A DNA stretch of 49,532 bases from Clostridiales bacterium (GTDB lineage Bacteria > Bacillota > Clostridia > Caldicoprobacterales > DTU083), in assembly GCA_012839095.1 (NCBI GenBank), contig DUOA01000129.1:1-49532 (forward strand), in the 5' to 3' direction. The translations under genes and the position numbers were made by a program. Numbering within the stretch: position 1 is the first letter of the stretch; each line of letters begins with the position of its first letter. The notes below the pieces were generated by a model. That model worked only from the letters and a program-made list of their open reading frames with translations. It was not told where the DNA came from and made no database searches. Shown here piece after piece: positions 15,412-40,928 of the stretch.

Positions 15412-15955
15412 AACCTTAAAAATGGGACTTAAGCTGCTGCTTATAACTGCAGTGGCAACTTTTGCCCTGGCCCTGACACATATGATTACAAAAGAGCCAA
15501 TACAGATTCAGGCTGCAAAAGCCGATGACATGGCCAGAGCATCCGTGCTGGATAATGTTGATGAGTTTGTTCCAGTGGAGTTTTCAGAAAAGGAGCATCC
15601 CAATATTCTGGAAGCCCATGAGGGAAGAATAAACGGTGATACAAAGGGATATACCCTTAAGACAACAAATCGCGGATACGGAGGAGAGCTTATTGTTATC
15701 GTCGGTATTGATTCAAACGGAAAAGTAAGCGGCATACAGATAGCACAGCATTCCGAGACACCAGGCCTGGGAAGCAAGGTCCTGGAACCGAAATTTTATG
15801 AACAATATAAAGGCATGACTGCTGACGACAGTATAGAGGATGACAGCATTTCCGGCATAACCGGTGCAACCGTTTCCTCGAAGGCAGTTACCGGTGCTGT
15901 AAATTATGCAATCGACTTTTACCTGACAGAACTGGCTGGAGGTGACAATCAATGA
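15404..15955 (+). CDS. rnfG: Rnf complex subunit G (covalent FMN protein)
   Basis: Electron-transfer subunit of 183 aa with one N-terminal membrane anchor (residues about 8-25, LKLLLITAVATFALALTH) and an extracytoplasmic FMN-binding domain. The flavinylation motif is SGITGATVSSKAV, with Thr156 as the expected phosphoester attachment site. The start is ATG 15404, with GGGGAGG about 10 bases upstream, inside the last codons of rnfD; the frame is open upstream to 15359 but that is rnfD sequence. The stop overlaps the rnfE start as ATGA. Confidence 0.95.
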   Translation: MPETLKMGLKLLLITAVATFALALTHMITKEPIQIQAAKADDMARASVLDNVDEFVPVEFSEKEHPNILEAHEGRINGDTKGYTLKTTNRGYGGELIVIVGIDSNGKVSGIQIAQHSETPGLGSKVLEPKFYEQYKGMTADDSIEDDSISGITGATVSSKAVTGAVNYAIDFYLTELAGGDNQ

Positions 15956-16563: not shown

Positions 16564-16577
16564 TAAACGAAGGGGGT

Positions 16578-17171
16578 ATGGATGTGGATTATTTAGGAAA
16601 GATATTTATTATTCTATTGAGTTCCATATTGATTAATAATTTCATTTTGTCACGCTTTCTTGGAATTTGTCCCTTCCTGGGAGTATCCCAGAAGATTTCA
16701 ACTGCAGTGGGTATGGGAGCGGCAGTAACTTTTGTAATGGCTTTGGCTTCAGTAATAACATATCTGGCTCATTACTTCCTGCTGGAGCCATTGGGCATGG
16801 AGTACATGCAGACCCTGGCCTTTATCCTTATCATAGCAGCATTGGTACAATTTGTAGAAATGGTTATACAAAAGACGAGCCCGTCGCTCTATCAGGCCTT
16901 AGGTGTATATCTGCCTTTAATTACAACCAATTGTGCCGTTTTAGGTGTAGCTATACTTAATATCAATGAAAAGTATGACCTTTTTCAGACATTGATAAAC
17001 GGCATTGGAGGAGCATTGGGCTTTACACTGGCAATCGTATTGTTTGCCGGTATTCGTGAAAGGTTGGAGACGGCCGATATTCCTGAGCCTTTTAAGGGAT
17101 TTCCCATTGCCATGATAACGGCTGGCCTTATGTCGGTTGCATTCCTGGGATTTCAAGGATTAATAAAATAA
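16578..17171 (+). CDS. rnfA: Rnf complex subunit A
   Basis: Six-helix membrane subunit of 197 aa with family segments NNFILSRFLGICPFLGVS and PLITTNCAVLGVA, containing the Cys residues that with RnfE ligate the intramembrane iron centre. The AGGGGG ribosome site ends one base before ATG 16578, so the in-frame GTG at 16584, which gives the shorter start MDYLGKIF, may be the true initiator. The gene follows rnfE after 14 bases. Confidence 0.94.
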   Translation: MDVDYLGKIFIILLSSILINNFILSRFLGICPFLGVSQKISTAVGMGAAVTFVMALASVITYLAHYFLLEPLGMEYMQTLAFILIIAALVQFVEMVIQKTSPSLYQALGVYLPLITTNCAVLGVAILNINEKYDLFQTLINGIGGALGFTLAIVLFAGIRERLETADIPEPFKGFPIAMITAGLMSVAFLGFQGLIK

Positions 17172-17183
17172 GGGGAGATTGAT

Positions 17184-18002
17184 ATGTGGAAAGAACTGGT
17201 ACTCCCGGTACTGAGTCTTGGTGGAATAAGCTTTCTGTTCGGAGCAGGTCTTTCACTGGCCTCCAAAAAATTTGCAGTGGAAACGGATCCGCGTATTGAT
17301 GATATAAGAGAGGCATTACCAGGAGCTAATTGCGGTGCATGCGGCTATCCCGGCTGTGATGGTCTTGCATCGGCAATTGCAGCAGGAGAAGCACCGGTGA
17401 ATGCCTGCCCGGTCGGCGGCAGTCCGGTAGCTGCCAAAGTTGCCTCTATCATGGGCTTGGAGACGGATGTCAAAGAGAGATTGACAGCCCGGGTGCTTTG
17501 TCAGGGAGATTGTGATCAGGCAGCGGACAAATATATGTATGAGGGAATCACCGATTGTGTGGCAGCTGCCATGCTGTCAGAAGGCCAGAAGGGTTGCAGC
17601 TATGGCTGTCTGGGTTTGGGGACATGTGAACGGGTCTGCCCCTTTGATGCCATTCATGTGAACGAAAAAGGCATAGCCGAAGTAGACAAGGAAAAATGCA
17701 CTGCCTGCGGTCTGTGTGTTGCCGCATGTCCCAAAAATGTTATTGAGCTCATACCTGTATCGAGTGAAGTGCAAGTAGCATGCAATTCCCGGGATACAGG
17801 AAAAGTGGTCAGATCAGTCTGTAAGGTTGGATGCATTGCCTGCAGAATTTGTGTTAAGGCCTGCCCCTTTGATGCCATGGAATTTGAAAATAATCTGGCA
17901 AAAATAAACTATGAGAAATGCACGAATTGCATGGTCTGTGCTCAGAAATGCCCAACCAAGGCAATTTATGCACAGTTCCTGGAACGTAAAGCTGCTTTAT
18001 AG
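17184..18002 (+). CDS. rnfB: Rnf complex subunit B (polyferredoxin)
   Basis: Ferredoxin-accepting subunit of 272 aa. An N-terminal membrane anchor (residues about 5-26) is followed by a Fes-type [4Fe-4S] domain, CGACGYPGCDGLASAI with a distal Cys in NACPVGG, and then ferredoxin clusters: CERVCPFDAI preceded by CSYGCLGLGTC, CTACGLCVAACP, CIACRICVKACP and CTNCMVCAQKCP. This is the cluster-rich clostridial type of RnfB. Last gene of the operon; a strong terminator follows. Confidence 0.95.
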   Translation: MWKELVLPVLSLGGISFLFGAGLSLASKKFAVETDPRIDDIREALPGANCGACGYPGCDGLASAIAAGEAPVNACPVGGSPVAAKVASIMGLETDVKERLTARVLCQGDCDQAADKYMYEGITDCVAAAMLSEGQKGCSYGCLGLGTCERVCPFDAIHVNEKGIAEVDKEKCTACGLCVAACPKNVIELIPVSSEVQVACNSRDTGKVVRSVCKVGCIACRICVKACPFDAMEFENNLAKINYEKCTNCMVCAQKCPTKAIYAQFLERKAAL

Positions 18003-22156: not shown

Positions 22157-22540
22157 ATGGCAGAAAACATGGACCAGGCAAGAAGGGACGATAAGGAAAA
22201 GAGGGGAGAAGGCTGGGTAAGTCTTATTATACGCTTTGTCATAGCGGCGATAGTTCTTATGGTGACTGCCTGGCTGACTCCCGGATTTTCCCGGATGGGA
22301 TTCGGCACTGCACTGGTCGCAGCATTGGTAATTGCAGCTATGGACTGGGTCGTTCAGCGTGTGTTTAAAATAGATGCATCTCCCTTTGGCAGGGGAATCG
22401 TCGGATTTATTGTATCTGCGATAATAATATATCTTACACAATTCCTGGTTCCAGGCATGAGTATTTCCATATGGGGGGCGGTAATTGCATCATTGATCAT
22501 TGGGATAATTGATGCAATCCTTCCTGTCAATGTAGTTTAG
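22157..22540 (+). CDS. Phage-holin-4 / YvlD family membrane protein
   Basis: Small integral membrane protein of 127 aa with a charged cytoplasmic N terminus (residues 1-20) and four transmembrane helices. It resembles the YvlD / Phage_holin_4_2 family (segments FVIAAIVLMVTAWLTPGF and ALVIAAMDWVVQRVF). Despite the family name, such proteins are chromosomal, often linked to cell-envelope stress, and there are no phage genes nearby. An AAAGGAG site lies before the ATG. The function is unproven. Confidence 0.75.
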   Translation: MAENMDQARRDDKEKRGEGWVSLIIRFVIAAIVLMVTAWLTPGFSRMGFGTALVAALVIAAMDWVVQRVFKIDASPFGRGIVGFIVSAIIIYLTQFLVPGMSISIWGAVIASLIIGIIDAILPVNVV

Positions 22541-22562
22541 ATTTACAATTCAACAGAGAGGG

Positions 22563-22590
22563 CCGGCGGCACAGGCTGCCGCCCTTTTTT
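22563..22590 (+). terminator. Rho-independent terminator after the YvlD-like gene
   Basis: GGCGGCA-CAGGC-TGCCGCC followed by C and six T residues. Confidence 0.9.
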
Positions 22591-22620
22591 GGCATGAAAA
22601 TCAATGTTTCCAGGATATCC

Positions 22621-22649
22621 TTGTAAACATAGTTTGTTTACTGTATAAT
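22621..22649 (+). promoter_or_regulatory. Promoter of the DUF1836 gene
   Basis: TTGTAA (22621-22626) and TATAAT (22644-22649) with 17-base spacing, 66 bases before the ATG. Confidence 0.65.
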
Positions 22650-22715
22650 GTGAATAAAGACTAGTTGATGAGAGAAAATGGCATAGTAAATATATCAATT
22701 GGAGATGTTTATTGA

Positions 22716-23312
22716 ATGGTACAGAATTTGCTGACTCAACTTTCTGAACTGATTGTTAACAGCGAAGATATTAGATTGGATGAGATCCCAGAGTACCGTC
22801 TGTATATCTCCCAGTTGGAGGAGTTCTTCGATAAAAAGCTTGGCAAAGGCAATGGTGACGACGAAGAACGCAAGGTGATATCCAAAACCATGATCCAGAA
22901 CTATATTAAGGACGGCTTACTGATGTCACCTGAGGGAAAATCCTACAATCGAAATCATGCCATACTACTTATACTTATTTACAGCCTCAAGTCCATCTTA
23001 TCCATTCGGGATATCCGCAGACTGCTTAGTCCCGTGATTTCTGATGTTAACAGTGAAGATAACAGTACCGAGATAGAGGATATATACAAGAATTTCTATT
23101 TGCTCAAGCAGCAAACCAAGCAGGAGCTGATTTCCGCTTTGGAGGATTTGGCTGATCGGGTAGGGGAATTAACTGTGCCTGAGAATAAAAATGCCGAAGA
23201 AGAACACCAGCTTCGTTTACTTCTTTTTATTTGCACTCTAATCACAGAAGCCAATTTTCGGAAACGAATAGCTGAATTTTTGATTGAACAGTACTTTGAA
23301 TCAGATGAATAA
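22716..23312 (+). CDS. DUF1836 domain protein, probable DNA-binding regulator
   Basis: A 198-aa cytosolic protein matching the DUF1836 family of Firmicutes. The central part, ISKTMIQNYIKDGLL with HAILLILIYSLKSILS, resembles a MerR-like winged helix: the phrase 'nYvKdGLL' is typical. The C-terminal half (KQQTKQELISALEDLADRV onward) is predicted helical and acidic. A regulatory role is inferred from the helix-turn-helix-like segment; no target or ligand is known. It is monocistronic, between its own promoter and terminator. Confidence 0.8.
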   Translation: MVQNLLTQLSELIVNSEDIRLDEIPEYRLYISQLEEFFDKKLGKGNGDDEERKVISKTMIQNYIKDGLLMSPEGKSYNRNHAILLILIYSLKSILSIRDIRRLLSPVISDVNSEDNSTEIEDIYKNFYLLKQQTKQELISALEDLADRVGELTVPENKNAEEEHQLRLLLFICTLITEANFRKRIAEFLIEQYFESDE

Positions 23313-23313
23313 T

Positions 23314-23354
23314 ATTCAACCCGTGGTTGTTTTCCCGGGTTGAATTTGTTTTTT
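23314..23354 (+). terminator. Rho-independent terminator after the DUF1836 gene
   Basis: ATTCAACCCG (23314-23323) pairs perfectly with CGGGTTGAAT (23336-23345), followed by TTGTTTTTT. Confidence 0.88.
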
Positions 23355-23533
23355 CGGGTAATAAAAAATGGGCTAAAAGGCCAGGTTGTTAATTGTGAAA
23401 ATTGTTGAAATATTCGAAATCGACCTAATAATGGTTGAATAATAGTTTCCATTACTATAAAATATAGTTGGAAGAAATGATGAAGAAGTTACAAATCTAC
23501 TTATTACCGAGTTTTTTGAAGGAGGGAATGTAC

Positions 23534-23851
23534 TTGAGCAAAAAGATTAAAAGAACACAAAGAACACGTTCCAGGAAGAAAAAAGCAACCCTCCGTTCAG
23601 GGAATTACATAATACCAACTGAACACGCCATAAAACGTTATCAGGAGCGCATCCGGATGATGAATCCCGGGAAAACTCAAAATGCAATTATCGAAGGGGT
23701 GAAGCGCAGCCGCCTGATCGCACTGACAAAGTATGGAGGCCGCGAGATCAGGGAAAACAGAGGTGTGGTTTTCGTATGCGAGCTGCATGGCAATCATTTA
23801 TATGTTATTACCGTACTAATCAGTCAGGTTGATCTGAGATTTGTTGTCTGA
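23534..23851 (+). CDS. Small basic protein of unknown function (HAxxRxxxR motif)
   Basis: Not recognised as a named family. The start is taken as TTG 23534 because GGAGGG ends 7 bases before it; an in-frame ATG at 23528 is too close and one at 23468 lacks a ribosome site. The 105-aa product has a strongly basic N terminus (KKIKRTQRTRSRKKK) followed by a compact domain with TEHAIKRYQERI, then RENRGVVFVCEL and LYVITVLI beta-strand-like segments. The His-Ala-x-x-Arg-x-x-x-Arg helix followed by strands recalls the DUF4258/BrnT-like RNase-toxin fold, but no antitoxin gene is adjacent and the similarity is only to the eye. A nucleic-acid-binding role is plausible from the charge. Confidence 0.6.
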   Translation: MSKKIKRTQRTRSRKKKATLRSGNYIIPTEHAIKRYQERIRMMNPGKTQNAIIEGVKRSRLIALTKYGGREIRENRGVVFVCELHGNHLYVITVLISQVDLRFVV

Positions 23852-23914
23852 ACAGGACAAGACCGGCAAATTAGTTGAGTGTTCAGCATAAATTAGATCT
23901 TCTCATTCATGAGG

Positions 23915-23940
23915 CAAGCCGTTTCGGCTTGTTTTTTTTT
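23915..23940 (+). terminator. Rho-independent terminator upstream of pncB
   Basis: CAAGCCG-TTT-CGGCTTG followed by nine T residues. The T-run overlaps the -35 box of the next promoter. Confidence 0.9.
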
Positions 23941-23956
23941 TCATCGGGTGTATAAT
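23929..23956 (+). promoter_or_regulatory. Putative pncB promoter
   Basis: TTGTTT (23929-23934) and TATAAT (23951-23956), 16-base spacing, 39 bases before the pncB start. Confidence 0.5.
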
Positions 23957-23995
23957 TAATAGAGCATAAAATGAATTAATTGAGAGGCGGCAGCA

Positions 23996-25426
23996 ATGAG
24001 AAACTTGACTATGATGACGGATCTGTATCAGCTGACCATGATGTACGGCTATTACAAAAACAATATCCATAACAGAAAAGCAGTATTTGATATGTATTTT
24101 CGCAAACCCGGCGAAAATTCTGCTTATGCTATTGCAGCAGGCTTGGAGCAGGTTATTGATTATATAGAAAATCTGCATTTCAGTGAGGAAGATATATTAT
24201 ATCTGGACAGCCTGAATCTGTTTGATAAGGGCTTTTTCGACATTCTGAGGGAATTGCGTTTCACCGGGGATATCCACGCTGTTCCTGAGGGAACTGTTGT
24301 TTTCCCCAATGAACCTATGGTACGGGTCAAGGCTCCTTTAATAGAGGCCCAGCTGATTGAAACAGCTTTGCTGAATATCATCAATCATCAAACGCTTATA
24401 GCAACCAAGGCCAGCAGGGTAGTAATGGCAGCTCAAGGCAGCAGTGTTTTGGAGTTCGGATTAAGAAGAGCTCAGGGGCCGGATGCAGGTATCTATGGAG
24501 CCAGAGCAGCAGTAATAGGGGGCTGTTCTGCTACATCGAATGTTATGACCGGTCAGATGTTCGGTATTCCTGTCAGAGGCACACACAGCCATAGCTGGGT
24601 TATGAGTTTTCCGGATGAGCTCAGTGCATTTCGTGCCTATGCGGATGCTTTTCCTGACGCCTGTCTGCTGCTGGTAGATACTTATGATACACTGAAAAGC
24701 GGTGTGCCCAACGCCATTACGGTATTTAATGAGTTGAGAGAAAGGGGATATGAGCCTGTAGGAATCCGTCTGGATTCCGGAGATCTTGCCTATTTAAGCA
24801 AGAAAGCCAGGATGATGCTGGATGAAGCAGGATTCCCGGATGCCAGGATAGTTGCATCCAATGATTTGGATGAGGAGCTTATCTGGGATCTCAAGGCTCA
24901 GGGGGCAAAAATTGATATTTTCGGTGTTGGAACTTCTCTGATAACCAGCCGCGGCTGTCCCGCCCTGGGAGGAGTATATAAAATGGCTGCAGAGGAAATC
25001 GACGGGGAAATGGTACCCAGAATTAAGATTTCTGAGAATCCGGTTAAGATTACCACTCCGGGGTACAAGAAAGTTGTACGCATATACAATGGGGGCGGAA
25101 AGGCTATTGCAGATCTGGTTATGCTGGATGAAGAAGAGATTGATGTCAGCAAGCCGCTTACCATCTTTGATCCGGTGAACACCTGGAAAAGAATGACCAT
25201 ACGCAATTTCACCATCAAGGAACTGTTGGTGCCAATCTTTGTGGATGGGAAGAAGGTGTATAATACTCCCGGTCTTTTGGAGATACAAGCCCATGCTTCA
25301 AAGGAGTTGGATACTCTTTGGGATGAATACAAACGCCTGAAAAATCCTCATGTATACAAGGTAGATCTTTCGCAGAAGCTGTATGATTTAAAACAAAGGT
25401 TATTAAAGGAGTACTCCTGGGCATAA
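23996..25426 (+). CDS. pncB: Nicotinate phosphoribosyltransferase
   Basis: Makes nicotinate mononucleotide from nicotinate and PRPP in NAD salvage (Preiss-Handler route). The 476-aa length and motifs fit the Gram-positive type: MTDLYQLTMMYGY at the N terminus, FGLRRAQGPDAG, and GTHSHSWVMSF with the His that is phosphorylated during the ATP-stimulated reaction. VGIRLDSGDLAYLS and FGVGTSL are PRPP-site segments. The ATG follows GAGAGGCGG. It is monocistronic, with terminators on both sides. Confidence 0.95.
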   Translation: MRNLTMMTDLYQLTMMYGYYKNNIHNRKAVFDMYFRKPGENSAYAIAAGLEQVIDYIENLHFSEEDILYLDSLNLFDKGFFDILRELRFTGDIHAVPEGTVVFPNEPMVRVKAPLIEAQLIETALLNIINHQTLIATKASRVVMAAQGSSVLEFGLRRAQGPDAGIYGARAAVIGGCSATSNVMTGQMFGIPVRGTHSHSWVMSFPDELSAFRAYADAFPDACLLLVDTYDTLKSGVPNAITVFNELRERGYEPVGIRLDSGDLAYLSKKARMMLDEAGFPDARIVASNDLDEELIWDLKAQGAKIDIFGVGTSLITSRGCPALGGVYKMAAEEIDGEMVPRIKISENPVKITTPGYKKVVRIYNGGGKAIADLVMLDEEEIDVSKPLTIFDPVNTWKRMTIRNFTIKELLVPIFVDGKKVYNTPGLLEIQAHASKELDTLWDEYKRLKNPHVYKVDLSQKLYDLKQRLLKEYSWA

Positions 25427-30186: not shown

Positions 30187-31074
30187 ATGCGTTACTCAAG
30201 AATAAGAAAAAGACAGGCAAGGAAAAGATATACAACCTTAATTCTGATTATTCTGCTCGGGTTCAGTATTGTCTATATATTTTCAGCGGGCCAATTGGGA
30301 AAGCTGGTGAGTAATCTGCTTCTGTCAGTTATAAATGGAGAGAGTAAAGGGGAAGAATCTAAGACCGATTATGATGATCCTGTTCTTACAGTTCCTGAAA
30401 ATACCGAAGAACCTGCCAGGGATACAGTAAAGGTAACTGAAACACTGAAGACAAATGCCTTAACTATTTATGCCATCCAAATGGGTGCTTTTACCGATGG
30501 CAGTAATGCAGAAGCCTTCGCACAGGAACTAAGAAATAAAGGAGGCGCAGGTTATATCCTGGATGATGGGTTTTACCGGGTAATGGCAATTGGATTTCAG
30601 TCGGAAGAGGATGCACAGAAGGTGAGGAAAGGACTGAAGGATGATGATATAGAAGCCCATGTCTATAAAATGGCTGCCTCCGGTGTTAATATGGAAATTA
30701 CAGCTACAAAGGATAATGTAGCTGCCATTTCTTCTGCTTATGAAAGCTGGGAGAAAAATTACCGCTCACTGGAAGATATCATAGTAAGTCTTGATTCCGG
30801 ATCAGTCAGCCCAATAGAGGCTTCAGACAGGATTCGCGCCATAAAAACAGAAATGGGGCAGATGAAGAATCAGTTGCAGGAGATAAGCAGTAATCAAAGC
30901 AATAACGCTATCCTTAGCGGCCTGGCAGCTCTATATGACAGCAGCTGTCAATCCCTTGACAAAGTTTTATCGAAAAATGTTGATGACAAGGTGGCAATTT
31001 CTTCTGTAATCAAGTATACTTATATCGATATGTTTATGCAATATAAGGATTATATGGAGCAAATTACGAAGTAG
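30187..31074 (+). CDS. SPOR-domain membrane protein
   Basis: A 295-aa membrane-anchored protein. The N terminus is highly basic (SRIRKRQARKRY) and precedes one transmembrane helix (residues about 18-35). A low-complexity acidic linker leads to a SPOR domain at about residues 95-170, YAIQMGAFTDGSNAEAFA to KMAASG, which in this family binds denuded peptidoglycan glycan strands at division or spore septa. The C-terminal 125 residues are helical and unassigned. It ends 23 bases before the first DRTGG gene, so it may be cotranscribed with the hydrogenase-sensor module, though no functional link is obvious. Confidence 0.85.
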   Translation: MRYSRIRKRQARKRYTTLILIILLGFSIVYIFSAGQLGKLVSNLLLSVINGESKGEESKTDYDDPVLTVPENTEEPARDTVKVTETLKTNALTIYAIQMGAFTDGSNAEAFAQELRNKGGAGYILDDGFYRVMAIGFQSEEDAQKVRKGLKDDDIEAHVYKMAASGVNMEITATKDNVAAISSAYESWEKNYRSLEDIIVSLDSGSVSPIEASDRIRAIKTEMGQMKNQLQEISSNQSNNAILSGLAALYDSSCQSLDKVLSKNVDDKVAISSVIKYTYIDMFMQYKDYMEQITK

Positions 31075-31097: not shown

Positions 31098-31457
31098 ATG
31101 CCCCTGACCCTTTTGAAAATAAAGCAAATCCTGAATGCTGAAGTCTTATATGGAGAGGACAAGCTTGATAAGGAAATACAATCAGCATGCGGTTCCGATT
31201 TAATGAGTGATGTATTGGCTTTTGTTAAAGAACAGACATTGTTGCTGACAGGTCTGACCAACCATCATGTCATCCGCACGGCAGAGCTGCTGGACGTCTC
31301 TGCCATTGTCTTTGTAAGAGGAAAATGCCCCGCCCCGGACATTATAGAAATGTCCAGGAATCATTCCATAGTTCTGATGTCAACTGCTGACAGCATGTTT
31401 ACAGCCTGTGGCAAGCTCTATCAGGCAGGATTGTCCGGGGGTGGTGAAATACAGTGA
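31098..31457 (+). CDS. Small DRTGG-domain protein, first copy
   Basis: A 119-aa cytosolic protein consisting only of a DRTGG domain, the module otherwise found in phosphotransacetylase N termini and in CBS-domain proteins. Segments LKIKQILNAEVLYGEDKLDKEI, DVLAFVKEQTLLLTGL and DVSAIVFVRGKCP show the alternating fold. A paralogue lies at 33283. It starts a compact run with an RsbW-like ATPase, a HydS-like hydrogenase, the second DRTGG gene and a PHP phosphoesterase, overlapping the ATPase gene by four bases. It is probably a ligand-binding or partner-switching component; the ligand is unknown. Confidence 0.83.
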   Translation: MPLTLLKIKQILNAEVLYGEDKLDKEIQSACGSDLMSDVLAFVKEQTLLLTGLTNHHVIRTAELLDVSAIVFVRGKCPAPDIIEMSRNHSIVLMSTADSMFTACGKLYQAGLSGGGEIQ

Positions 31458-31924
31458 AAGAGAAGGTCGTAAATGGTTCGGAGAGCTGTGTTCAGTCAGC
31501 GAAAACAGCATTAATAAGGCAGATTTACCGTGTTCAGGCAATGGATTTTGCATCCGCCGGAGAAATATCAGGTAAGATAAAAAATATACTGAAGCAATTA
31601 GGTGTTAATGGTGAGATGATAAGGCGCGCCGCCATAGCCAGTTACGAAGCAGAAATGAATCTGGTTATTCATTCCTGGGGAGGCAGCCTTATATTTGTGG
31701 TAACGCCGGAGGAAATTCAGATTATTACCCAGGACACAGGGCCGGGAATACCCGACATTGATCTGGCTATGCAGGAAGGCTATTCCACTGCATCCGATCA
31801 GGCCAGAGAACTGGGTTTTGGAGCCGGAATGGGTCTTCCTAACATTCAACGCTGTTCCGATAGAGTAGAAATAAGCTCAAAAGAAGGACAGGGCACAACG
31901 TTGAAAATAAGCTTTTTCCTGTAA
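31454..31924 (+). CDS. RsbW/SpoIIAB-like ATP-binding protein (serine kinase type)
   Basis: A 156-aa stand-alone GHKL ATPase. The N box AEMNLVIHSW (around residue 70), G1 box QDTGPGIPD and G2 box GFGAGMGLPNI are all present, in the order seen in anti-sigma factor kinases. There is no histidine phosphoacceptor domain. It begins at GTG 31454, overlapping the stop of the preceding DRTGG gene (GTGA). Adjacency to a HydS-like sensor suggests it phosphorylates or binds a partner in response to H2 or redox state; no antagonist STAS protein is encoded nearby, so the partner is unidentified. Confidence 0.85.
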   Translation: MKEKVVNGSESCVQSAKTALIRQIYRVQAMDFASAGEISGKIKNILKQLGVNGEMIRRAAIASYEAEMNLVIHSWGGSLIFVVTPEEIQIITQDTGPGIPDIDLAMQEGYSTASDQARELGFGAGMGLPNIQRCSDRVEISSKEGQGTTLKISFFL

Positions 31925-31964
31925 CCGTCTGTTCAACAGTCAAAAGTAAGGCAGGTGATTGGAA

Positions 31965-33296
31965 ATGAGTGAGTATTATCATTCAGTAACACTGGACAAG
32001 GAAAAATGCATGGGCTGCACTAACTGTATCAAGCATTGCCCCACCGAAGCCATACGAGTCCGAAACAGAAAAGCGCAGATAATAGACGAGCGCTGCATTG
32101 ATTGCGGAGAATGCATCCGCGTATGTCCCTATCACGCAAAAATCGCCGTCACCGATCCACTGTCCGTTCTGGATAATTACGCTTATAAAATTGCATTGCC
32201 TGCTCCCACACTGTTCGGTCAGTTTAAAAATCTGAAAAAATGCGATAAAGTATTATCAGCTCTGAAAAAACTGGGCTTTGACTATGTTTTTGAAGTTGCA
32301 AAAGGTGCAGATATTGTAACAGAGCTCATCAGGGACAAGCTTGATATTACCGATATCAAAAAACCTCTGATTTCCAGTGCCTGCCCGGCTATTCTGCGGC
32401 TGATTCAGGTACGCTTTCCCAACCTGCTGGATCACCTTGTACGGGTTGAGTCACCCATGGAAATTGCAGCTCAATTGGCAAAAGATGAGTTACATAAAAA
32501 AACAGGCATTCCAAAGCAGCAGATAGGGGCATTTTTTATTACGCCCTGTGCAGCAAAAATGACCAGTATCCGAAATCCGATAGGAAATGAAGCTTCTCAT
32601 GTAGATGGAGCTATCTCAATTCTTGATGTATATGGTCCGATATCATCTTATTTGAAAATACCGGATAATACGGAGAAACAGCAAAGAGCAACTGCTGCCG
32701 GCCTCAACTGGGCTGTTACCGGCGGAGAGGGCCAGGCTTTGGGTATCGACAATTATCTGTCGGTAGACGGCATTCAGAATGTAATTCCTGTACTGGAGGA
32801 AATCGAGAACAACAAGATGTCGGAGCTGGACTTTTTTGAAGGTTTAGCCTGCGCCGGCGGCTGCGTTGGCGGCCCTCTCACCTTTGAAAACGGGTATGTG
32901 GCTAAAAACCGGATCCGCTTATTGGCAAAAGGACTTCAAAACAGCCCGCCGGACGATACTGAGTTGGAATACGTTAAAAGCAACCTGGAATGGAAACTGC
33001 AAAAAAATATTATTGAAAAGCCTGTGCTCAAGCTGGATCAGGATATTGTAACCGCCATTCAGAAGATGGAAGCAATGGAACAAATTAACAGAAATCTGCC
33101 AGGATTGGATTGCGGTTCATGTGGCTCGCCCAGCTGCAGAACATTGGCTGAGGATATTGTGAGGGGCAATGCCTCTGAGATGGATTGCGTTTTTAAATTA
33201 AGAGAAAAAGTTAAAATGCTGGCACAGGAGATGGTGGAACTGTCGGACAAGATGCCTGCCGGAAGGGAGGATAGAAAGCGAAATGATAATTCTTAA
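31965..33296 (+). CDS. HydS-like sensory [FeFe] hydrogenase (no PAS domain)
   Basis: A 443-aa iron-sulfur protein of the sensory [FeFe] hydrogenase type. Two ferredoxin clusters come first, CMGCTNCIKHCP and CIDCGECIRVCP, then the H-domain. Its first motif reads SSACPAI: the ligand Cys (residue 140) is kept, while the proton-relay Cys of catalytic enzymes is Ala (139). Motif 2 is TPCAAK and motif 3 LACAGGCVGG, so all four H-cluster cubane ligands remain. A Fes-type [4Fe-4S] domain, CGSCGSPSCRTLAEDI, ends the chain, followed by a short helical tail where related HydS proteins carry a PAS domain. Start ATG 31965 has AGGTGA 6 bases upstream; TTG 31959 overlaps it. Proposed role: sensing H2 or redox potential for the adjacent hydrogenase. 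Confidence 0.88.
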   Translation: MSEYYHSVTLDKEKCMGCTNCIKHCPTEAIRVRNRKAQIIDERCIDCGECIRVCPYHAKIAVTDPLSVLDNYAYKIALPAPTLFGQFKNLKKCDKVLSALKKLGFDYVFEVAKGADIVTELIRDKLDITDIKKPLISSACPAILRLIQVRFPNLLDHLVRVESPMEIAAQLAKDELHKKTGIPKQQIGAFFITPCAAKMTSIRNPIGNEASHVDGAISILDVYGPISSYLKIPDNTEKQQRATAAGLNWAVTGGEGQALGIDNYLSVDGIQNVIPVLEEIENNKMSELDFFEGLACAGGCVGGPLTFENGYVAKNRIRLLAKGLQNSPPDDTELEYVKSNLEWKLQKNIIEKPVLKLDQDIVTAIQKMEAMEQINRNLPGLDCGSCGSPSCRTLAEDIVRGNASEMDCVFKLREKVKMLAQEMVELSDKMPAGREDRKRNDNS

Positions 33297-33630
33297 AGAT
33301 CTGATTAAGGAATTGGATTTGGAAATCCTGTCTGAAGGAAGTGACTTGAACCGTACAGTAGCTACAGGCTGCTGTTGTGATTTGCTCAGCTGGGTTATGG
33401 CTAACGGAAGAAAGGATGCAATATGGGTTACGGTTCAGGCACATGTGAATGTAATAGCCGTAGCTTCTCTCCTTGAACTAGCGGGAGTGATTATAACTTC
33501 AGGATTGCCGGTGGAGGAGAAAACAATAGAAAGAGCACGAAGTGAAGGCGTCACACTGTTGTCTTCACGAATGGATGCTTTCCAGCTTGCAGGTAAGCTG
33601 TACAATATGGGTATTGGAAAAGAAAGTTGA
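33283..33630 (+). CDS. Small DRTGG-domain protein, second copy
   Basis: A 115-aa paralogue of the protein at 31098, with the same layout: KDLIKELDLEILSEGSDLNR, then VMANGRKDAIWVTVQ and ELAGVIITSGLP. A CCCDLLSWVM stretch has three consecutive Cys (residues about 27-29) where the first copy has Cys-Gly-Ser, which could add redox or metal sensitivity. The gene overlaps the end of the hydrogenase sensor gene by 14 bases, so translation is coupled. Confidence 0.82.
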   Translation: MIILKDLIKELDLEILSEGSDLNRTVATGCCCDLLSWVMANGRKDAIWVTVQAHVNVIAVASLLELAGVIITSGLPVEEKTIERARSEGVTLLSSRMDAFQLAGKLYNMGIGKES

Positions 33631-33637
33631 GTTCAAA

Positions 33638-34339
33638 ATGGAAGCTGCTGTGGATCTGCATATTCATTCTGCTTTGTCACCTTGTGCTGATGACGATATG
33701 ACTCCCAATAATATTGTAAACATGGCCCTTTTGAACGGACTGGATGCTATAGCGGTTACAGATCATAACTGTTGTGACAATGTAGAAGCTGTAACTAAAG
33801 CAGCCGGCAACAAGCTGATAGTACTGCCCGGTATGGAGCTTCAAACCTTGGAGGAGGTACATCTGCTATGCTATTTTCAGGATCTGACATCGCTTTATGA
33901 CTTTAGAAATCATATGGAACAATTCTATGATGGCATGCCCAACCATCCATCTTATTTTGGCCATCAATGGATAATGAATGAAAGAGACGAAGTCATAGGA
34001 TCCAAGGAGCAAGCCTTGCTGGCATCACTTCTGCTTTCTTTTGATGATGCCGTGGAATTAATCAGGAAATTTAAAGGGCTGCCTGTTCCAGCCCATATAA
34101 ATAAACCTTCCAACAGTATCCTGTCCCAGCTTGGGTTTATCCCTCCTGAATCAGGCCTGACATTGTTGGAAATTTCACACAATTATCCTTTGGATTACAG
34201 ACAGTATCCGAATTGCACATTTCTTGTCTCATCAGATGCCCACTTTTTGGGTCAAATTTTGGAAAGAAAAATGTTGATTTCTGTTGAAGAAATTACAAAA
34301 GAACAAATTTTCCAGTTTTTATCCAAATCTTTTATATAA
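33638..34339 (+). CDS. PHP-domain metal-dependent phosphoesterase
   Basis: A 233-aa PHP-family phosphoesterase related to the histidinol-phosphatase and polymerase X-associated fold. Metal-binding residues are intact: DLHIHSALSPC at the N terminus (His-x-His), VTDHN, PGMELQTLEEVHLL, PAHINKP and SSDAHFL near the C terminus. The start is placed at ATG 33638, directly before the DLHIHS motif; TTG 33614 is an in-frame alternative, and longer readings overlap the preceding gene. As last gene of the sensor run it could dephosphorylate a protein or a small-molecule signal made by the ATPase; the substrate is unknown. Confidence 0.87.
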   Translation: MEAAVDLHIHSALSPCADDDMTPNNIVNMALLNGLDAIAVTDHNCCDNVEAVTKAAGNKLIVLPGMELQTLEEVHLLCYFQDLTSLYDFRNHMEQFYDGMPNHPSYFGHQWIMNERDEVIGSKEQALLASLLLSFDDAVELIRKFKGLPVPAHINKPSNSILSQLGFIPPESGLTLLEISHNYPLDYRQYPNCTFLVSSDAHFLGQILERKMLISVEEITKEQIFQFLSKSFI

Positions 34340-34429
34340 CAGCTATGGGATTACAGGATTGTGATATATAATAGCGAATGATTTTCTTTCTTTTTTAAAA
34401 AATATTTGTGAAAAAGTTGACGATTTTCA

Positions 34430-34458
34430 TTGATTATCAGCCGGGTTTATGAGATAAT
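34430..34458 (+). promoter_or_regulatory. Putative promoter of the hydrogenase operon
   Basis: TTGATT (34430-34435) and GATAAT (34453-34458), 17-base spacing, 47 bases before hydC. The hexamers are off-consensus, which would suit regulated expression. Confidence 0.5.
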
Positions 34459-34505
34459 GTATGAGAATTATTTATCAATCAAAGGAATTGGGGGAGGGAG
34501 TATAC

Positions 34506-34994
34506 ATGTCAACTTCTATTCTTCAGGATAACAAAGAAAAATTTGCAGAACTGCAACGCATCATTGATGAATACAAGGATAAGGAAGGCCCCTTGATGCT
34601 TATTTTGCATAAGGCGCAGGAGCTGTTCGGGTGTCTTCCGGTGGAAGTGCAGGAATATATCGCGGAATCTTTGGATATTCCGCTTACCGATATATATGGA
34701 GTAGCTACCTTCTATTCACAGTTTACGTTGCAGCCCAAGGGTAAGTATACAATTGGTGTATGCATGGGTACAGCCTGCTATGTGAAAGGTGCTCAGGCTG
34801 TTTTGGACGAGCTGAGCAAGGAGATAGGAATTAAGCCCGGTGAAACTTCTGAGGATTTCGTCTTTACCCTGGAAGCAACCCGCTGTCTGGGAGCATGTGG
34901 TCTGGCGCCGGTTATAATGATCAATGATGACGTATACGGACGCTTGGTCCCATCTGACATCAAGGGCATCGTTGACAAATATCGAGGCAGGTAA
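34506..34994 (+). CDS. hydC: Hydrogenase subunit HydC (NuoE-like, 2Fe-2S)
   Basis: The 162-aa thioredoxin-fold [2Fe-2S] subunit of the NADH-linked hydrogenase, homologous to the 24-kDa NuoE subunit of Complex I. Cluster ligands are CMGTAC and CLGAC (Cys-x4-Cys and Cys-x3-Cys), with the conserved YGVATFYSQF segment before them. The start is ATG 34506, with GGGGGAGGG 6 bases upstream; an ATG at 34461 has no such site. First gene of the five-gene operon to hydA. It passes electrons between HydB and HydA. Confidence 0.93.
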   Translation: MSTSILQDNKEKFAELQRIIDEYKDKEGPLMLILHKAQELFGCLPVEVQEYIAESLDIPLTDIYGVATFYSQFTLQPKGKYTIGVCMGTACYVKGAQAVLDELSKEIGIKPGETSEDFVFTLEATRCLGACGLAPVIMINDDVYGRLVPSDIKGIVDKYRGR

Positions 34995-34997: not shown

Positions 34998-35546
34998 ATG
35001 GAGGATATTTCACTTCATTTACTGGACCTGGTGCAAAATTCCATTACAGCCAAAGCCACCCTTATCCATATTTCAATCAGGGAAATTCCGGACAAAGGGC
35101 AGATATGGGTGGAGGTTCAGGATAACGGTACAGGTATGAACAGCTGTCAGCTGCAGCAGGTATCTGATCCCTTCTATACCACACGTACCACCCGCAGAGT
35201 CGGCCTGGGCATTCCTATGTTTCAGGCATCTGCTGAGGCTACCGGCGGCAGCCTTCACATAGAATCTGAACCAGGTAAGGGTACTGCCTTACGGGCATTG
35301 TTTATAAGCAGTCATATTGACTGTCTGCCTTTGGGTAGGTTGGAAGACACCCTTGCTGCTCTGATTTTTCTGAATCCTGATGTGGATATCGTATATGTCC
35401 ATGAGTATTGCGGCAGGCAGTTTTTAATGGATACCCGTCAGATACGTGAAATACTTGGAGAGGTGGATATCGCAGACCCAACAGTAATTCAATGGATAAA
35501 GGAATATATCCGAAATGGTTTAAATGAGATAAATGGAGGTGCCTGA
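34998..35546 (+). CDS. Stand-alone HATPase in the hydrogenase operon
   Basis: A 182-aa protein with a GHKL ATP-binding domain in residues 1-100: N box LLDLVQNSITAKA, G1 VQDNGTGM, F box DPFYTT and G2 VGLGIPMF. There is no sensor or phosphoacceptor helix before it, so it is not a complete histidine kinase. The C-terminal 80 residues are unassigned. Such a gene between hydC and the 2Fe-2S gene is recurrent in clostridial hydrogenase operons. It differs in sequence from the ATPase at 31454, giving two stand-alone ATPases around this hydrogenase. A regulatory role is inferred. Confidence 0.85.
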   Translation: MEDISLHLLDLVQNSITAKATLIHISIREIPDKGQIWVEVQDNGTGMNSCQLQQVSDPFYTTRTTRRVGLGIPMFQASAEATGGSLHIESEPGKGTALRALFISSHIDCLPLGRLEDTLAALIFLNPDVDIVYVHEYCGRQFLMDTRQIREILGEVDIADPTVIQWIKEYIRNGLNEINGGA

Positions 35547-35549: not shown

Positions 35550-35918
35550 ATGAAGTCCCTGAAAGAATTGGAAGAAATCAAACAAAGAACTTTGGATTCT
35601 GTTAATTTAAGGCAGGACAGGACAGGGGGAACCCGTGTTGTAGTCGGAATGGGAACCTGCGGCATAGCAGCCGGTGCCCGGCCGGTTCTGCTGGCTTTTC
35701 TGGAAGAGATAAAAAAGAGAAATCTGGGTGATGTTACCGTTGTTCAGACAGGATGCATAGGCGTGTGCAGGCTGGAGCCGATGGTAGAGGTAACCCTTCC
35801 GGGTGAAGAAAAAGTCACCTATGTAAAAATGACTGCGGACAAGGTAAAAAGAGTAGTGGCTGAGCATGTTGTAAACGGCCAGGTGGTCTCTGAATTTACC
35901 ATTGGTGCCGCAGAATAG
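35550..35918 (+). CDS. Thioredoxin-like 2Fe-2S ferredoxin of the hydrogenase operon
   Basis: A 122-aa protein homologous to the N-terminal thioredoxin-like [2Fe-2S] domain of HydB/NuoF-type subunits. Ligands: GMGTCGIAAGA (one Cys, then a spacing of about 40) and QTGCIGVCRLEP. In this copy the first loop has one Cys where NuoE proteins have two, so the cluster may have three Cys ligands plus another residue; the Cys at GTC is followed by Gly-Ile-Ala-Ala. It is translationally near-coupled to the HATPase gene (3-base gap). Role: extra electron carrier or structural subunit. Confidence 0.85.
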   Translation: MKSLKELEEIKQRTLDSVNLRQDRTGGTRVVVGMGTCGIAAGARPVLLAFLEEIKKRNLGDVTVVQTGCIGVCRLEPMVEVTLPGEEKVTYVKMTADKVKRVVAEHVVNGQVVSEFTIGAAE

Positions 35919-35948: not shown

Positions 35949-37745
35949 ATGGAGTTTTATCGTTCCCATGTCCTGATATGCGGAGGAACAGGATGCCATT
36001 CTTCCGGTTCCGGAGAGGTAATGGAAACATTCAAATCCGAACTTGCAAAACACAATCTGGAGAATGAGATAAAGCTGGTTCAAACCGGCTGTTTTGGCTT
36101 GTGCGCTGTTGGCCCCGTAGTAATTGTTTATCCTGAAGGCGCTTTTTACAGCAGGGTCAAAGATGAAGATGTTTCGAGGATCGTTACCGAGCATCTGCTC
36201 AAAGGCAGAATAGTTACCGATCTTCTCTATCATGACAGCGTTCATGAGGATGAGGCAATAAAATCCCTCAACGAAGTGGAATTCTACAAAAAACAGATGC
36301 GTCTTGCTCTCCGTAATTGCGGTGTGATAGATCCGGAAAAGATCGAGGAATATATTGCCTTTGACGGATACAAAGCCCTTGGCAAGGTACTGCTGGAAAT
36401 GACCCCTGAGGAAACAATAAATTTAATCAAGGCCTCGGGCTTGAGAGGCCGGGGTGGCGCCGGTTTCCCCGCCGGTTTAAAATGGGAGTTTACAGCCAAA
36501 GCACAGGGAGACAAAAAGTATGTCTGCTGTAATGCCGACGAGGGAGATCCCGGCGCATTCATGGACAGAAGCATTCTGGAAGGCGACCCTCACAGTGTTT
36601 TGGAAGCCATGACCATTGCAGGTTATGCAGTCGGAGCTGATCAGGGTTATATCTATGTCAGAGCGGAATACCCGATAGCAGTAAAACGTCTGACTATTGC
36701 CATAGCTCAGGCAAGAGAGGCCGGGCTTTTGGGCAGAAATATATTCGGTACGGATTTCAGCTTTGATATTGAACTGAGATTGGGCGCCGGCGCCTTTGTA
36801 TGCGGTGAGGAGACGGCTTTGATGGCTTCCATAGAAGGAATGAGGGGGGAACCAAGACCCAGACCGCCTTTTCCCGCTGTCAAGGGAGTGTTCGGCAAGC
36901 CAACCCTGCTGAATAATGTTGAAACCTATGCCAATATTCCTCCAATTCTTCTGAACGGGCCGGAATGGTTTCAATCCATTGGAACAGAAAAGAGCAAGGG
37001 CACCAAGGTGTTTGCTCTGGGTGGAAAAATAAACAATACCGGTCTTGTGGAAGTGCCCATGGGCACTACACTGAGGGAAATTATTTATGAAATAGGAGGC
37101 GGCATTCCCGATAATAAGGAATTCAAAGCTGCACAAACCGGGGGACCATCAGGAGGCTGCATACCGGCGCAGCATCTGGACACTCCTATTGACTATGACT
37201 CGCTGACACAGATAGGTTCCATGATGGGCTCCGGAGGCTTAATAGTCATGGACAATGAAAACTGCATGGTCGATATAGCCAGGTTCTTCCTGGACTTTAC
37301 CGTGGATGAATCCTGCGGAAAGTGCCCTCCCTGCCGCATCGGAACAAAACGTATGCTTGAAATACTTGAGCGCATTACCCAGGGTAAGGGAGAAGAAGGC
37401 GATATTGAAAAGCTTCAGGAACTGGGCAGGAGCATAAAATCATCAGCTCTGTGCGGTCTTGGTCAGACTGCCCCTAATCCTGTGCTGAGCACAATCCAAT
37501 ATTTCCGTGAGGAATACGAGGCGCATATTCGCGATAAAAGGTGCCCTGCCGGAGTATGCCAGGCCCTTCTGCAAATAATTATTCAGGCAGAGCTTTGCAA
37601 GGGCTGCGGCTTGTGCATCAAGGCTTGTCCTGTTGATGCAATTTCCGGAGAACGCAGAAGTCCCCATGTAATTGATCAGAGCAAGTGCATCAAGTGTGGA
37701 GCCTGCTTGGAGAAATGCCCCTTCAAGGCTATTGTGAAGGGATAG
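35949..37745 (+). CDS. hydB: Hydrogenase subunit HydB (NuoF-like, NADH/FMN)
   Basis: NADH-binding flavoprotein subunit of 598 aa. Domains in order: thioredoxin-like 2Fe-2S (residues about 5-85, GGTGCHSSGSG and QTGCFGLC), the FMN/NAD(H) fold with RGRGGAGFPAGLKWEF and CCNADEGDPGAFMDR, SLBB, then the NuoF cluster ESCGKCPPCRIGTKR with a distal Cys in CGLGQTAPNP. Two C-terminal ferredoxin clusters follow, CKGCGLCIKACP and CIKCGACLEKCP. This matches the HydB of trimeric electron-bifurcating hydrogenases, where the flavin is the proposed bifurcation site. GGAGGG precedes the ATG by 8 bases. Confidence 0.96.
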   Translation: MEFYRSHVLICGGTGCHSSGSGEVMETFKSELAKHNLENEIKLVQTGCFGLCAVGPVVIVYPEGAFYSRVKDEDVSRIVTEHLLKGRIVTDLLYHDSVHEDEAIKSLNEVEFYKKQMRLALRNCGVIDPEKIEEYIAFDGYKALGKVLLEMTPEETINLIKASGLRGRGGAGFPAGLKWEFTAKAQGDKKYVCCNADEGDPGAFMDRSILEGDPHSVLEAMTIAGYAVGADQGYIYVRAEYPIAVKRLTIAIAQAREAGLLGRNIFGTDFSFDIELRLGAGAFVCGEETALMASIEGMRGEPRPRPPFPAVKGVFGKPTLLNNVETYANIPPILLNGPEWFQSIGTEKSKGTKVFALGGKINNTGLVEVPMGTTLREIIYEIGGGIPDNKEFKAAQTGGPSGGCIPAQHLDTPIDYDSLTQIGSMMGSGGLIVMDNENCMVDIARFFLDFTVDESCGKCPPCRIGTKRMLEILERITQGKGEEGDIEKLQELGRSIKSSALCGLGQTAPNPVLSTIQYFREEYEAHIRDKRCPAGVCQALLQIIIQAELCKGCGLCIKACPVDAISGERRSPHVIDQSKCIKCGACLEKCPFKAIVKG

Positions 37746-37773
37746 AGTTTATACAGAAAAGGGAGTGACAAAG

Positions 37774-39513
37774 ATGGAAATGGTAAAGTTGACCATAGAC
37801 GGCATCCAGGTGGAAGTACCGAAGGGAACAACGGTATTGGAAGCAGCCAGGGCTGCCAATATCCAGATTCCCACCTTGTGCTACCTGAAGGGAGTCAATG
37901 AAATCGGTGCCTGCCGTATGTGTCTGGTGGAAGTAAAAGGTGCCAGAAATCTGCAGGCTTCATGTGTATATCCGGCAGCCGACGGAATGGAAGTAAAAAC
38001 CAACACTGTCTCCGTAAGAAAAGCAAGAAGAGTAAACTTGGAATTGATTCTGTCCAATCATGATCGAAAATGTCTGACCTGTGTCAGAAGTGAGAATTGT
38101 GAACTGCAGGCTCTTTCCAAACAATTAGGTGTAGACGATATCAGATATGACGGAGAGAGAATTGATTATGCCGTTGATGATTTCTCGACTTCGATAGTAC
38201 GGGATCCAAACAAATGCATTCTGTGCCGCCGCTGTGTCGCCACCTGCAGGGATGTGCAGGGAATTGGTGCTATTGGTGCCACGGAAAGAGGATTCCGTTC
38301 CATAGTGGAGCCGGCTTTTGATAAGAGCATATCTGATGTAAACTGCATAAACTGCGGACAATGTATAGAAGCCTGTCCGGTAGGAGCTTTGAGAGAAAAG
38401 GACGACACCGACAGAGTTTGGGAAGCATTAAGCAATCCGGATCTCCATGTGGTGGTTCAGACGGCTCCGGCTGTGCGTGTTGCCCTGGGTGAGGAGTTTG
38501 GCATGCCCATCGGCACCCGTGTTACGGGAAAAATGGTTGCAGCACTTCGCAGACTGGGCTTTGATCGGGTATTTGATACCGATTTTGCTGCAGATCTAAC
38601 CATTATGGAGGAAGGTACAGAATTACTGAACAGGTTGCAAAGCGGCGGAAAGCTGCCCCTGATCACCTCCTGCAGTCCCGGCTGGATAAAATACTGCGAG
38701 CATAATTATCCTGAATTTCTGGATAATCTGTCCACCTGCAAGTCTCCTCATGAGATGATGGGTGCTGTGGTAAAATCATATTATGCTGAGAAAAACAATA
38801 TGGATCCTGCCAATATTTTTGTAGTATCCATTATGCCCTGTACTGCCAAGAAGTTTGAAGCAGCCAGGCCGGAACTGAGCTCAACCGGTCATCCGGATGT
38901 TGACGTGGTATTAACCACAAGGGAGCTGGCCAGGATGATCAAACAGGCAGGTATAGATTTCATAAAACTGAATGATGAAGACTTTGATCCTACTTTGGGA
39001 GACTCTACCGGAGCAGCTGTTATCTTTGGTACTACCGGTGGTGTTATGGAAGCTGCCTTGCGCACAGTATATGAAATTGTTACAGGCAAGACCTTGGAGA
39101 ACCTGGAGATTCATGCTGTCCGTGGCATGGATGGTGTGAAAGAGGTGGAAGTTCCCCTTGGTGATGTAACGATAAAAGCAGCTGTTGCCCATGGAACAGC
39201 CAATGCCAAAGCCTTACTGGAAAAGGTGAAATCCGGCGAAAAGGAATATCACTTTATTGAGGTTATGGGCTGTCCCGGCGGATGTGTAACCGGCGGCGGA
39301 CAACCTATCGTACCGGCTCAGGTACAAATGGAGATCGATGTACACAAGGCTCGCGCTGCAGCAATCTATGATGAGGACAGAGCGCTGCCTGTACGAAAAT
39401 CTCATGAAAACGAGTCTGTTAAAAAAGTCTATGCGGAATACCTGGGTGAGCCCAACAGCCACAAGGCTCATGAACTGCTGCATACCCACTACACACCAAG
39501 AAAAAGATACTGA
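37774..39513 (+). CDS. hydA: [FeFe] hydrogenase catalytic subunit HydA
   Basis: Catalytic subunit of 579 aa that reduces protons or oxidises H2. N-terminal 2Fe-2S domain with GACRMCLVEV, His-ligated cluster HDRKCLTCVRSENC, two ferredoxin clusters (CILCRRCVATC and CINCGQCIEACP), then the H-domain and small-subunit-like C terminus ending SHKAHELLHTHY. H-cluster motifs: TSCSPGW (residues 298-304), MPCTAKKFE and EVMGCPGGCVTGGG. The first has Ser301 where classical enzymes have the ligand Cys of TSCCPxW. The start is ATG 37774, with GGGAG 8 bases upstream; GTG 37765 overlaps it. The extra C-terminal 2Fe-2S domain of Thermotoga HydA is absent. Confidence 0.95.
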   Translation: MEMVKLTIDGIQVEVPKGTTVLEAARAANIQIPTLCYLKGVNEIGACRMCLVEVKGARNLQASCVYPAADGMEVKTNTVSVRKARRVNLELILSNHDRKCLTCVRSENCELQALSKQLGVDDIRYDGERIDYAVDDFSTSIVRDPNKCILCRRCVATCRDVQGIGAIGATERGFRSIVEPAFDKSISDVNCINCGQCIEACPVGALREKDDTDRVWEALSNPDLHVVVQTAPAVRVALGEEFGMPIGTRVTGKMVAALRRLGFDRVFDTDFAADLTIMEEGTELLNRLQSGGKLPLITSCSPGWIKYCEHNYPEFLDNLSTCKSPHEMMGAVVKSYYAEKNNMDPANIFVVSIMPCTAKKFEAARPELSSTGHPDVDVVLTTRELARMIKQAGIDFIKLNDEDFDPTLGDSTGAAVIFGTTGGVMEAALRTVYEIVTGKTLENLEIHAVRGMDGVKEVEVPLGDVTIKAAVAHGTANAKALLEKVKSGEKEYHFIEVMGCPGGCVTGGGQPIVPAQVQMEIDVHKARAAAIYDEDRALPVRKSHENESVKKVYAEYLGEPNSHKAHELLHTHYTPRKRY

Positions 39514-40788: not shown

Positions 40789-40928
40789 TACTTAAAAAAG
40801 AATAGATTACTGTGCTTCCTTGTTATTTCCATAACAAAGAGAAGGAATTTGCTGCTTTATGTCGAAATGATACTTCAACGGACTCCAAACTTGGAATTCC
40901 CAAATGATCTCAGCATGGAGGGAAGGCA

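Follow-up and report, generated by a model that had tools for sequence, protein, structure and literature searches.

The DNA examined here, referred to as the window, is one entire contig of 49 532 bp (GenBank accession number DUOA01000129.1) from the 2.7 Mb draft genome of a Clostridiales bacterium (assembly GCA_012839095.1). It carries a module of five genes encoding a DRTGG-domain protein (DRTGG1), a stand-alone ATPase (HATPase1), an [FeFe] hydrogenase (HydS), a second DRTGG-domain protein (DRTGG2) and a PHP-family phosphoesterase (PHP), ahead of the operon for a bifurcating hydrogenase (HydABC). The conserved partnership of HydS with the other four proteins is well supported, and together they probably represent a genuine sensory complex of the group D hydrogenases. 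The reading that we favour, and consider reasonably probable, is that the module encodes a soluble cytosolic complex for sensing H2/redox state, with a SpoIIAB-type kinase/ATPase under the control of HydS. An initial annotation of the window had proposed a compact signalling module around a HydS-like hydrogenase. The module was borne out, and the proposal as a whole is supported in part. Its mechanistic side, with the H-cluster state passed to the ATPase, reversal by PHP and hydA expression as the output, is a prediction, and two corrections are needed, namely to the class of HydS and to the placement of the module.

Conservation, fusions and unlinked copies of the module

Searches of whole genomes from the class and phylum, together with GTDB genomes that have record titles, gave 266 distinct loci with a gene for a group D HydS (HydS-D). 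Counts of module genes were restricted to the 213 loci with at least 1.8 kb upstream and at least 2.5 kb downstream. HATPase1 was present in 204 of these, DRTGG2 in 196, DRTGG1 in 188 and PHP in 183. All four partners were found in 174, which is far above chance. The neighbourhood survey that had been suggested as a check on the module found both the gene set and the gene order to be conserved. HydS-D was found in 138 of 291 genomes, and 136 of the 138 also encode DRTGG1; HydS is at or near a contig end in the other two. A relative of DRTGG1 was detected in just four of the 153 genomes that lack HydS-D, and two of the four are weak. This co-occurrence corresponds to a Fisher p of ~1e-75, a statistic that ignores the kinship of the genomes. 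The genomes with HydS-D include Thermoanaerobacter wiegelii, Thermoanaerobacterium butyriciformans, Christensenella hongkongensis, Tepidanaerobacter sp. and Thermoclostridium caenicola, as well as metagenome-assembled genomes (MAGs) labelled Spirochaetales and Syntrophorhabdales.

Natural fusions of adjacent genes were of three types. DRTGG1 is fused to HATPase1 in eight loci (L193, L221, L224, L227, L234, L242, L253 and L292), HATPase1 to HydS in two (L291 and L297), and DRTGG2 to the C-terminus of HydS in two (L226 and L228). Both domains were confirmed with Pfam in one example of each type. In the HydS tree, the DRTGG1-HATPase1 fusions fall into at least two clades and the other types into one each. 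Hence, there are four independent natural fusions, counting at least two events for DRTGG1-HATPase1, and they link neighbours into the chain DRTGG1-HATPase1-HydS-DRTGG2. With the exception of the singleton L292, each fusion spans a clade of two or more genomes, and assembly errors are therefore an unlikely source. No fusion involving PHP was found among the surveyed loci. The fusions are the strongest evidence for contact among DRTGG1, HATPase1, HydS and DRTGG2, which is well supported, and the separate proteins of the source organism would be expected to make the same contacts.

The module can also be split. One genome (G269) has DRTGG1 (22161–22502), HATPase1 (22555–22959), DRTGG2 (23028–23333) and PHP (23369–24073) in a contiguous cluster without HydS, and the HydS gene is at 425411 in the same contig, ~400 kb from its partners. 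A genome from a second genus (G211) has DRTGG1, HATPase1 and PHP close together and HydS on a different contig. After the G269 HydS gene (L124) comes an Rnf operon, with RnfD confirmed by Pfam, and the genes that follow HydS in G211 (L125) match those of this operon in size. HydS can thus leave the cluster in two genera, with both parts still retained.

Reduced variants were also found. HATPase1-HydS is present alone behind genes for a histidine kinase and an OmpR-type response regulator in L169 (confirmed with Pfam) and, judged by the same layout, in L218, L222, L223, L225 and L295, and it lies behind CheW in L172. Second copies consisting of HydS-DRTGG2 without HATPase1 were seen in L249, L254, L273 and L274. 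These variants indicate that the module is divisible, with HATPase1-HydS as its commonest core. In a Spirochaetaceae MAG (L186, 1256–2228), the gene ahead of HATPase1-HydS encodes a small membrane protein that, by eye, is like the S component of vitamin transporters. Overall, the conserved gene set and order, the co-occurrence, the fusions and the unlinked but co-retained case strongly support a single functional module of five proteins.

HydS and its partner proteins

HydS is assigned by its sequence to the group D (M2e) [FeFe] hydrogenases. The group D layout and the Cx2Cx4Cx16C motif were defined by Land et al. 2020 (PMC8163306), and the group D glutamates are E252 and E289 of the model enzyme TamHydS from Thermoanaerobacter mathranii (PMC10407848). 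The Pfam domains of HydS comprise two N-terminal [4Fe-4S] motifs, the H-domain and a C-terminal iron–sulfur (FeS) motif, Cx2Cx4Cx16C, formed by C385, C388, C393 and C410, each of which is invariant or 99 % conserved in 92 relatives. The H-cluster cysteines C142, C197, C298 and C302 are all present and near-invariant in relatives. Ala141, preceding the H-cluster Cys142, replaces the proton-path Cys of group A. E257 and E294, the latter conserved in 100 % of relatives, correspond to TamHydS E252 and E289, with a spacing of 37 in both proteins, and C385 corresponds to TamHydS C379. All of the diagnostic residues of TamHydS that were checked were thus found in HydS, which shares its domain layout, C-terminal motif and group D glutamates with the enzyme described previously (PMC8163306, PMC10407848, PMC13104023). 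The T. wiegelii orthologue (L162), ~55 % identical to HydS, has E252, E289, A137 and C379 at exactly the published TamHydS numbers, and its gene is in the same DRTGG-HATPase-HydS-DRTGG-PHP module within the same ten-gene arrangement as in the window.

The initial annotation had described a HydS-like sensor. The identification as an [FeFe] hydrogenase stands, but likeness to the group C (M2f) enzyme TmHydS does not, because the group D residues and layout are present and a PAS domain is absent. Group C enzymes are also putative sensors with an H-domain and N- and C-terminal FeS clusters, often encoded near group A hydrogenases, but they include a signalling PAS domain. Pfam scans, up to an E value of 0.1, gave no PAS match for HydS or for the other module genes that they covered. 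Longer homologues (~560–880 aa), presumed to belong to group C, match HydS at only ~1e-41 to 1e-49. A sensory function for group D enzymes, TamHydS included, is a proposal in the literature. TamHydS is catalytically competent and turns over H2, with an H2 affinity constant of ~0.1 mM (PMC8163306), though the specific activity of group D is orders of magnitude under that of group A (PMC10407848). The secondary structure of TamHydS shifts with H2, while its C-terminal cluster stays unreduced (PMC13104023).

HATPase1 is, by sequence and structure, a SpoIIAB-type GHKL kinase/ATPase, and kinase activity is predicted. Its motifs, an N-box (Y64-E65-x-E67-x-N69), D94-x-G96-P-G98 and GFGAGMG, are near-invariant in relatives, and the catalytic-base Glu (E65) and Mg-binding Asn (N69), which align with the SpoIIAB N-box, are 100 % conserved. 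Relatives of solved structure are 1til and 1th8, with a fold match to the SpoIIAB type at TMt 0.83. The best curated NCBIfam match was to spIIAB, at 50.8 bits against a cut-off of 135, and the RsbW model scored 21.3 bits against 145. Hence, HATPase1 shares the fold and the catalytic Glu and Asn with the SpoIIAB/RsbW/RsbT anti-sigma kinases, but it falls below the curated cut-offs and is partnered with DRTGG proteins and a hydrogenase. An analogy can also be drawn with the regulatory [NiFe] hydrogenase HoxBC and HoxJ, where an H2-sensing hydrogenase is coupled to an ATP-binding kinase (PMC3561251, PMC8163306). However, that system uses a different metal enzyme, and HoxJ is a PAS-histidine kinase, whereas HATPase1 has neither a phospho-acceptor domain nor PAS.

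In the L227 fusion, the DRTGG1 domain aligns with 2ioj, which has the DRTGG fold, at TMt 0.78, and structure comparison showed that the DRTGG1 fold resembles archaeal AF_1212 and the regulatory region of a Clostridium perfringens pyrophosphatase. PHP is related in sequence to EndoQ (5zb8) and an RNase (7ug9). Its metal ligands (D5/H7/H9, D41/H42, E66, H74, H152 and D199/H201, A2 numbering) are complete and invariant, and align with those in EndoQ structures. The ATP- and metal-binding motifs that had been read as intact are therefore confirmed, and are near-invariant among relatives.

Transcription units, Rex and neighbouring operons

The features of the locus are listed in Table 1. All five open reading frames (ORFs) were confirmed at the places given to them by the initial annotation, and each scores above the Pfam cut-off for its named domain. 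Both reported overlaps were also found in the sequence: the DRTGG1 and HATPase1 genes share GTGA at 31454, and the HydS and DRTGG2 genes share 14 bases (33283–33296). The only coordinate corrected was the mechanically assigned start of PHP at GTG 33542, which is wrong; alignment of relatives places it at ATG 33638. A stand-alone HATPase within the hydrogenase operon (HATPase2) was confirmed too. HATPase2 was found in 137 of 186 long loci, including 20 without HydA, and even there it is placed after PHP or NuoE.

Table 1. Features of the module and of the hydrogenase operon in the window
Feature	Coordinates	Strand	Description and matches
DRTGG1	31098..31457	+	119 aa; PF07085, 29.5 bits (Pfam cut-off 25.2)
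HATPase1	31454..31924	+	156 aa; SpoIIAB/RsbW-type GHKL kinase/ATPase; PF02518/PF13581; HATPase_c, 36.9 bits (cut-off 26.4)
HydS	31959..33296	+	PF02906 (Fe_hyd_lg_C), 128 bits (cut-off 22.1); Fer4; PF04060, 46.9 bits (cut-off 23)
DRTGG2	33283..33630	+	115 aa; PF07085, 31.6 bits (Pfam cut-off 25.2)
PHP	33638..34339	+	233 aa; PHP-family metal-dependent phosphoesterase; PF02811, 35.3 bits (cut-off 26.4)
Gap between module and hydrogenase operon	34340..34460	+	Weak Rex-box-like site, 34406–34423 (11/14)
NuoE	34461..34994	+	NuoE-type subunit of bifurcating hydrogenase; PF01257
HATPase2	34998..35546	+	Histidine-kinase-type ATPase domain protein, ~80 extra residues; PF02518, 60.4 bits
Ferredoxin subunit	35550..35918	+	Thioredoxin-like [2Fe-2S]; PF01257, 24.7 bits (slightly below cut-off); NF041612, 44 bits
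NuoF (HydB)	35949..37745	+	NuoF-type subunit; translation and survey profile
HydA	37765..39513	+	Group A (A6) catalytic subunit of bifurcating hydrogenase; NF040763, 948 bits (cut-off 765)

The initial annotation had placed the module immediately upstream of the hydrogenase operon. The order is correct, but a regulatory gap usually sets the two apart, and copies are also found beside Rnf or other genes. Across the loci, 77–93 % of instances of each join within the module are at most 30 nt, and the joins of the HydABC operon are also tight, whereas PHP and NuoE are set well apart (median 132 nt, with at most 30 nt in 5 %). In most cases, the module thus forms a separate transcription unit, which lies ~130 nt upstream of the operon for the bifurcating hydrogenase. 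A gene for a membrane-anchored SPOR-type protein (30187–31074) stops 23 nt ahead of DRTGG1 in the window. As relatives recur directly upstream of the module, on the same strand, in ~45 surveyed loci, it may be the first gene of the module transcription unit.

The Rex box consensus is TTGTTAA-N4-TTAACAA. Sites agreeing with at least 12 of its 14 positions were scored as Rex-box-like. Upstream of NuoE there were 46 such sites against 1.4 expected, and upstream of DRTGG1 there were 11 against 0.9, though the loci share ancestry and the counts are non-independent. Two control positions were not enriched (1 against 0.7 and 2 against 0.5 expected). In seven loci (L242, L227, L224, L193, L234, L221 and L253), the rex gene and the DRTGG1-HATPase1 fusion gene share 4 nt, which makes Rex part of the sensory operon there, and in other loci rex is just upstream or downstream. 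The site in the window gap fails the stricter pattern and matches just 11 positions, so a Rex box is not claimed for the source genome, which has two genes with a Rex DNA-binding domain, both elsewhere than the module. The hydrogenase operon is not the site of the best Rex-box-like palindrome of the window, TTGTTATTTCCATAACAA (40820–40837), which instead precedes an ORF of 148 aa (40929).

In other genomes, copies of the module have Rnf, dihydroorotate dehydrogenase B (DHODH-B), NAPRTase or no related gene beside them. The module is therefore associated with NADH/NAD+ control, yet it is not simply part of the hydrogenase operon.

Further observations were made on neighbouring genes. In L064, L071, L075 and L210, the module is directly upstream of the DHODH-B genes, with the FAD/FeS subunit first and the dehydrogenase second, an association with a further NAD-coupled redox enzyme that was not expected. 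A gene for an RseC/MucC-family membrane protein follows HATPase2, downstream of PHP, in L232, L247, L269 and L243 (confirmed with Pfam for L243, the others by likeness). The window also includes a complete Rnf operon (RnfC, D, G, E, A and B by sequence and order) at 12996–18002, ~13 kb upstream of the module.

Proposed mechanism, alternatives and significance

According to the reading favoured here, HydS, as a slow group D [FeFe] hydrogenase, would be the sensor, and its reaction with H2 would change its structure. HATPase1 would touch HydS directly and read its state. DRTGG1 would bind HATPase1 and DRTGG2 would bind HydS, both as regulatory, probably ligand- or nucleotide-binding subunits that tune HATPase1. 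PHP, as a metal-dependent phosphoesterase, would remove or reset the phosphorylated product. The output may adjust redox enzymes coupled to NAD(H) and ferredoxin, mostly the neighbouring HydABC and sometimes Rnf, and in some of the genomes the transcription of these operons appears to be under the control of Rex, acting alongside the module. The direction of the signal, the kinase activity, the substrate of PHP and the target are all predictions, and the neighbourhood of the module is the basis for proposing HydABC as the target in most genomes. A stronger version, put forward only tentatively, is that the proteins form a bacterial signalling complex of a type not described before, with an [FeFe] hydrogenase gating a SpoIIAB-type kinase directly via DRTGG adaptors and PHP as the reset enzyme. 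It would then amount to a route of H2 sensing that is widespread among anaerobes, dispenses with PAS, histidine kinases and STAS, and controls the bifurcating hydrogenase and Rnf.

Several findings weigh against the favoured reading. PHP is missing from 30 of the 213 loci, DRTGG2 and PHP are both missing from some, and many copies of the module adjoin no hydrogenase. Mean-field direct coupling analysis of 214 complete five-protein sets (effective number 198) did not single out any pair; HydS-DRTGG2 and DRTGG2-PHP showed weak clustering (p ~0.03–0.04) that was lost after correction for ten tests. AlphaFold2 (AF2) models of natural fusions had confident domains, but as the linkers are disordered and the predicted TM-scores (pTM) moderate (0.73 and 0.77), they establish no interface. 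Finally, although SpoIIAB usually acts with a STAS protein and a sigma factor, no STAS antagonist or sigma factor gene was recognised as a recurrent neighbour when neighbour clusters were assessed from representatives by eye, and a classical partner switch is therefore not visible. The recurrent neighbours are the SPOR-type protein, folC, Rex, DHODH-B and Rnf.

A variant of the partner switch is the first alternative. HATPase1 would phosphorylate a DRTGG protein, PHP would dephosphorylate it, and the free or phosphorylated form would bind a distant regulator to affect transcription. The candidate sites, DRTGG1 Ser37 and DRTGG2 Ser36, are 99–100 % conserved in relatives, HATPase1 is SpoIIAB-like and naturally fused to DRTGG1, and the reduced variant has a histidine kinase and an OmpR-type regulator ahead of HATPase1-HydS. 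However, as well as the lack of a recurrent STAS or sigma gene nearby, HATPase1-HydS variants occur without the DRTGG proteins and PHP, and the conserved Thr 51, 61 and 96 of DRTGG1 align with Thr residues of the archaeal DRTGG protein AF_1212, which points to a role in the fold or ligand and not in phosphorylation. We regard this variant as unlikely. The second alternative, that HydS and its partners, instead of sensing, serve as an ATPase-driven helper complex that builds, protects or repairs FeS redox enzymes (HydABC and Rnf, for example), is consistent with the position of the module beside different FeS complexes (HydABC, Rnf and DHODH-B) and with the second stand-alone ATPase in the HydABC operon. 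It is, in our view, improbable, as many copies have no adjacent FeS enzyme, HATPase1 is of the SpoIIAB signalling type, HydS retains the full H-cluster site, and TamHydS turns over H2 (PMC8163306). Least probable by our assessment is that HydS is a working low-rate H2/ferredoxin enzyme whose partners tune its own activity alone and pass no signal on, because although its N-terminal ferredoxin domain is intact and TamHydS is competent with the H2 affinity given above (PMC8163306), group D activities are far below those of group A (PMC10407848) and the kinase-like ATPase is fused straight to HydS in L291 and L297.

For the sensory complex that we favour, the outline was already known. Group D genes have been reported upstream of bifurcating hydrogenases, frequently with a kinase in between (PMC3561251, PMC3608648), and the neighbour of the TamHydS gene encodes a histidine-kinase-like ATPase (PMC8163306). 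Our literature searches found no paper joining DRTGG with [FeFe] hydrogenases, none that brings a PHP domain together with an FeFe hydrogenase, a histidine kinase and an operon, and no account of the whole module, of its fusions or of the unlinked arrangement, though papers outside those searched may contain one. The full gene set, the fusions, the unlinked case and the connection with Rex thus appear to be new.

A 2026 paper on TamHydS described the identification of interaction partners as critical to understanding H2 signalling (PMC13104023). The module, and above all its fusions, supplies named candidates that can be cloned, for example from the isolates of Thermoanaerobacter wiegelii and Tepidanaerobacter. 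If the proposal is correct, it would explain how many anaerobes that produce or handle H2 in the gut, the rumen and digesters sense H2 or redox state, and would have a bearing on H2 yield, methane formation and acetogenesis.

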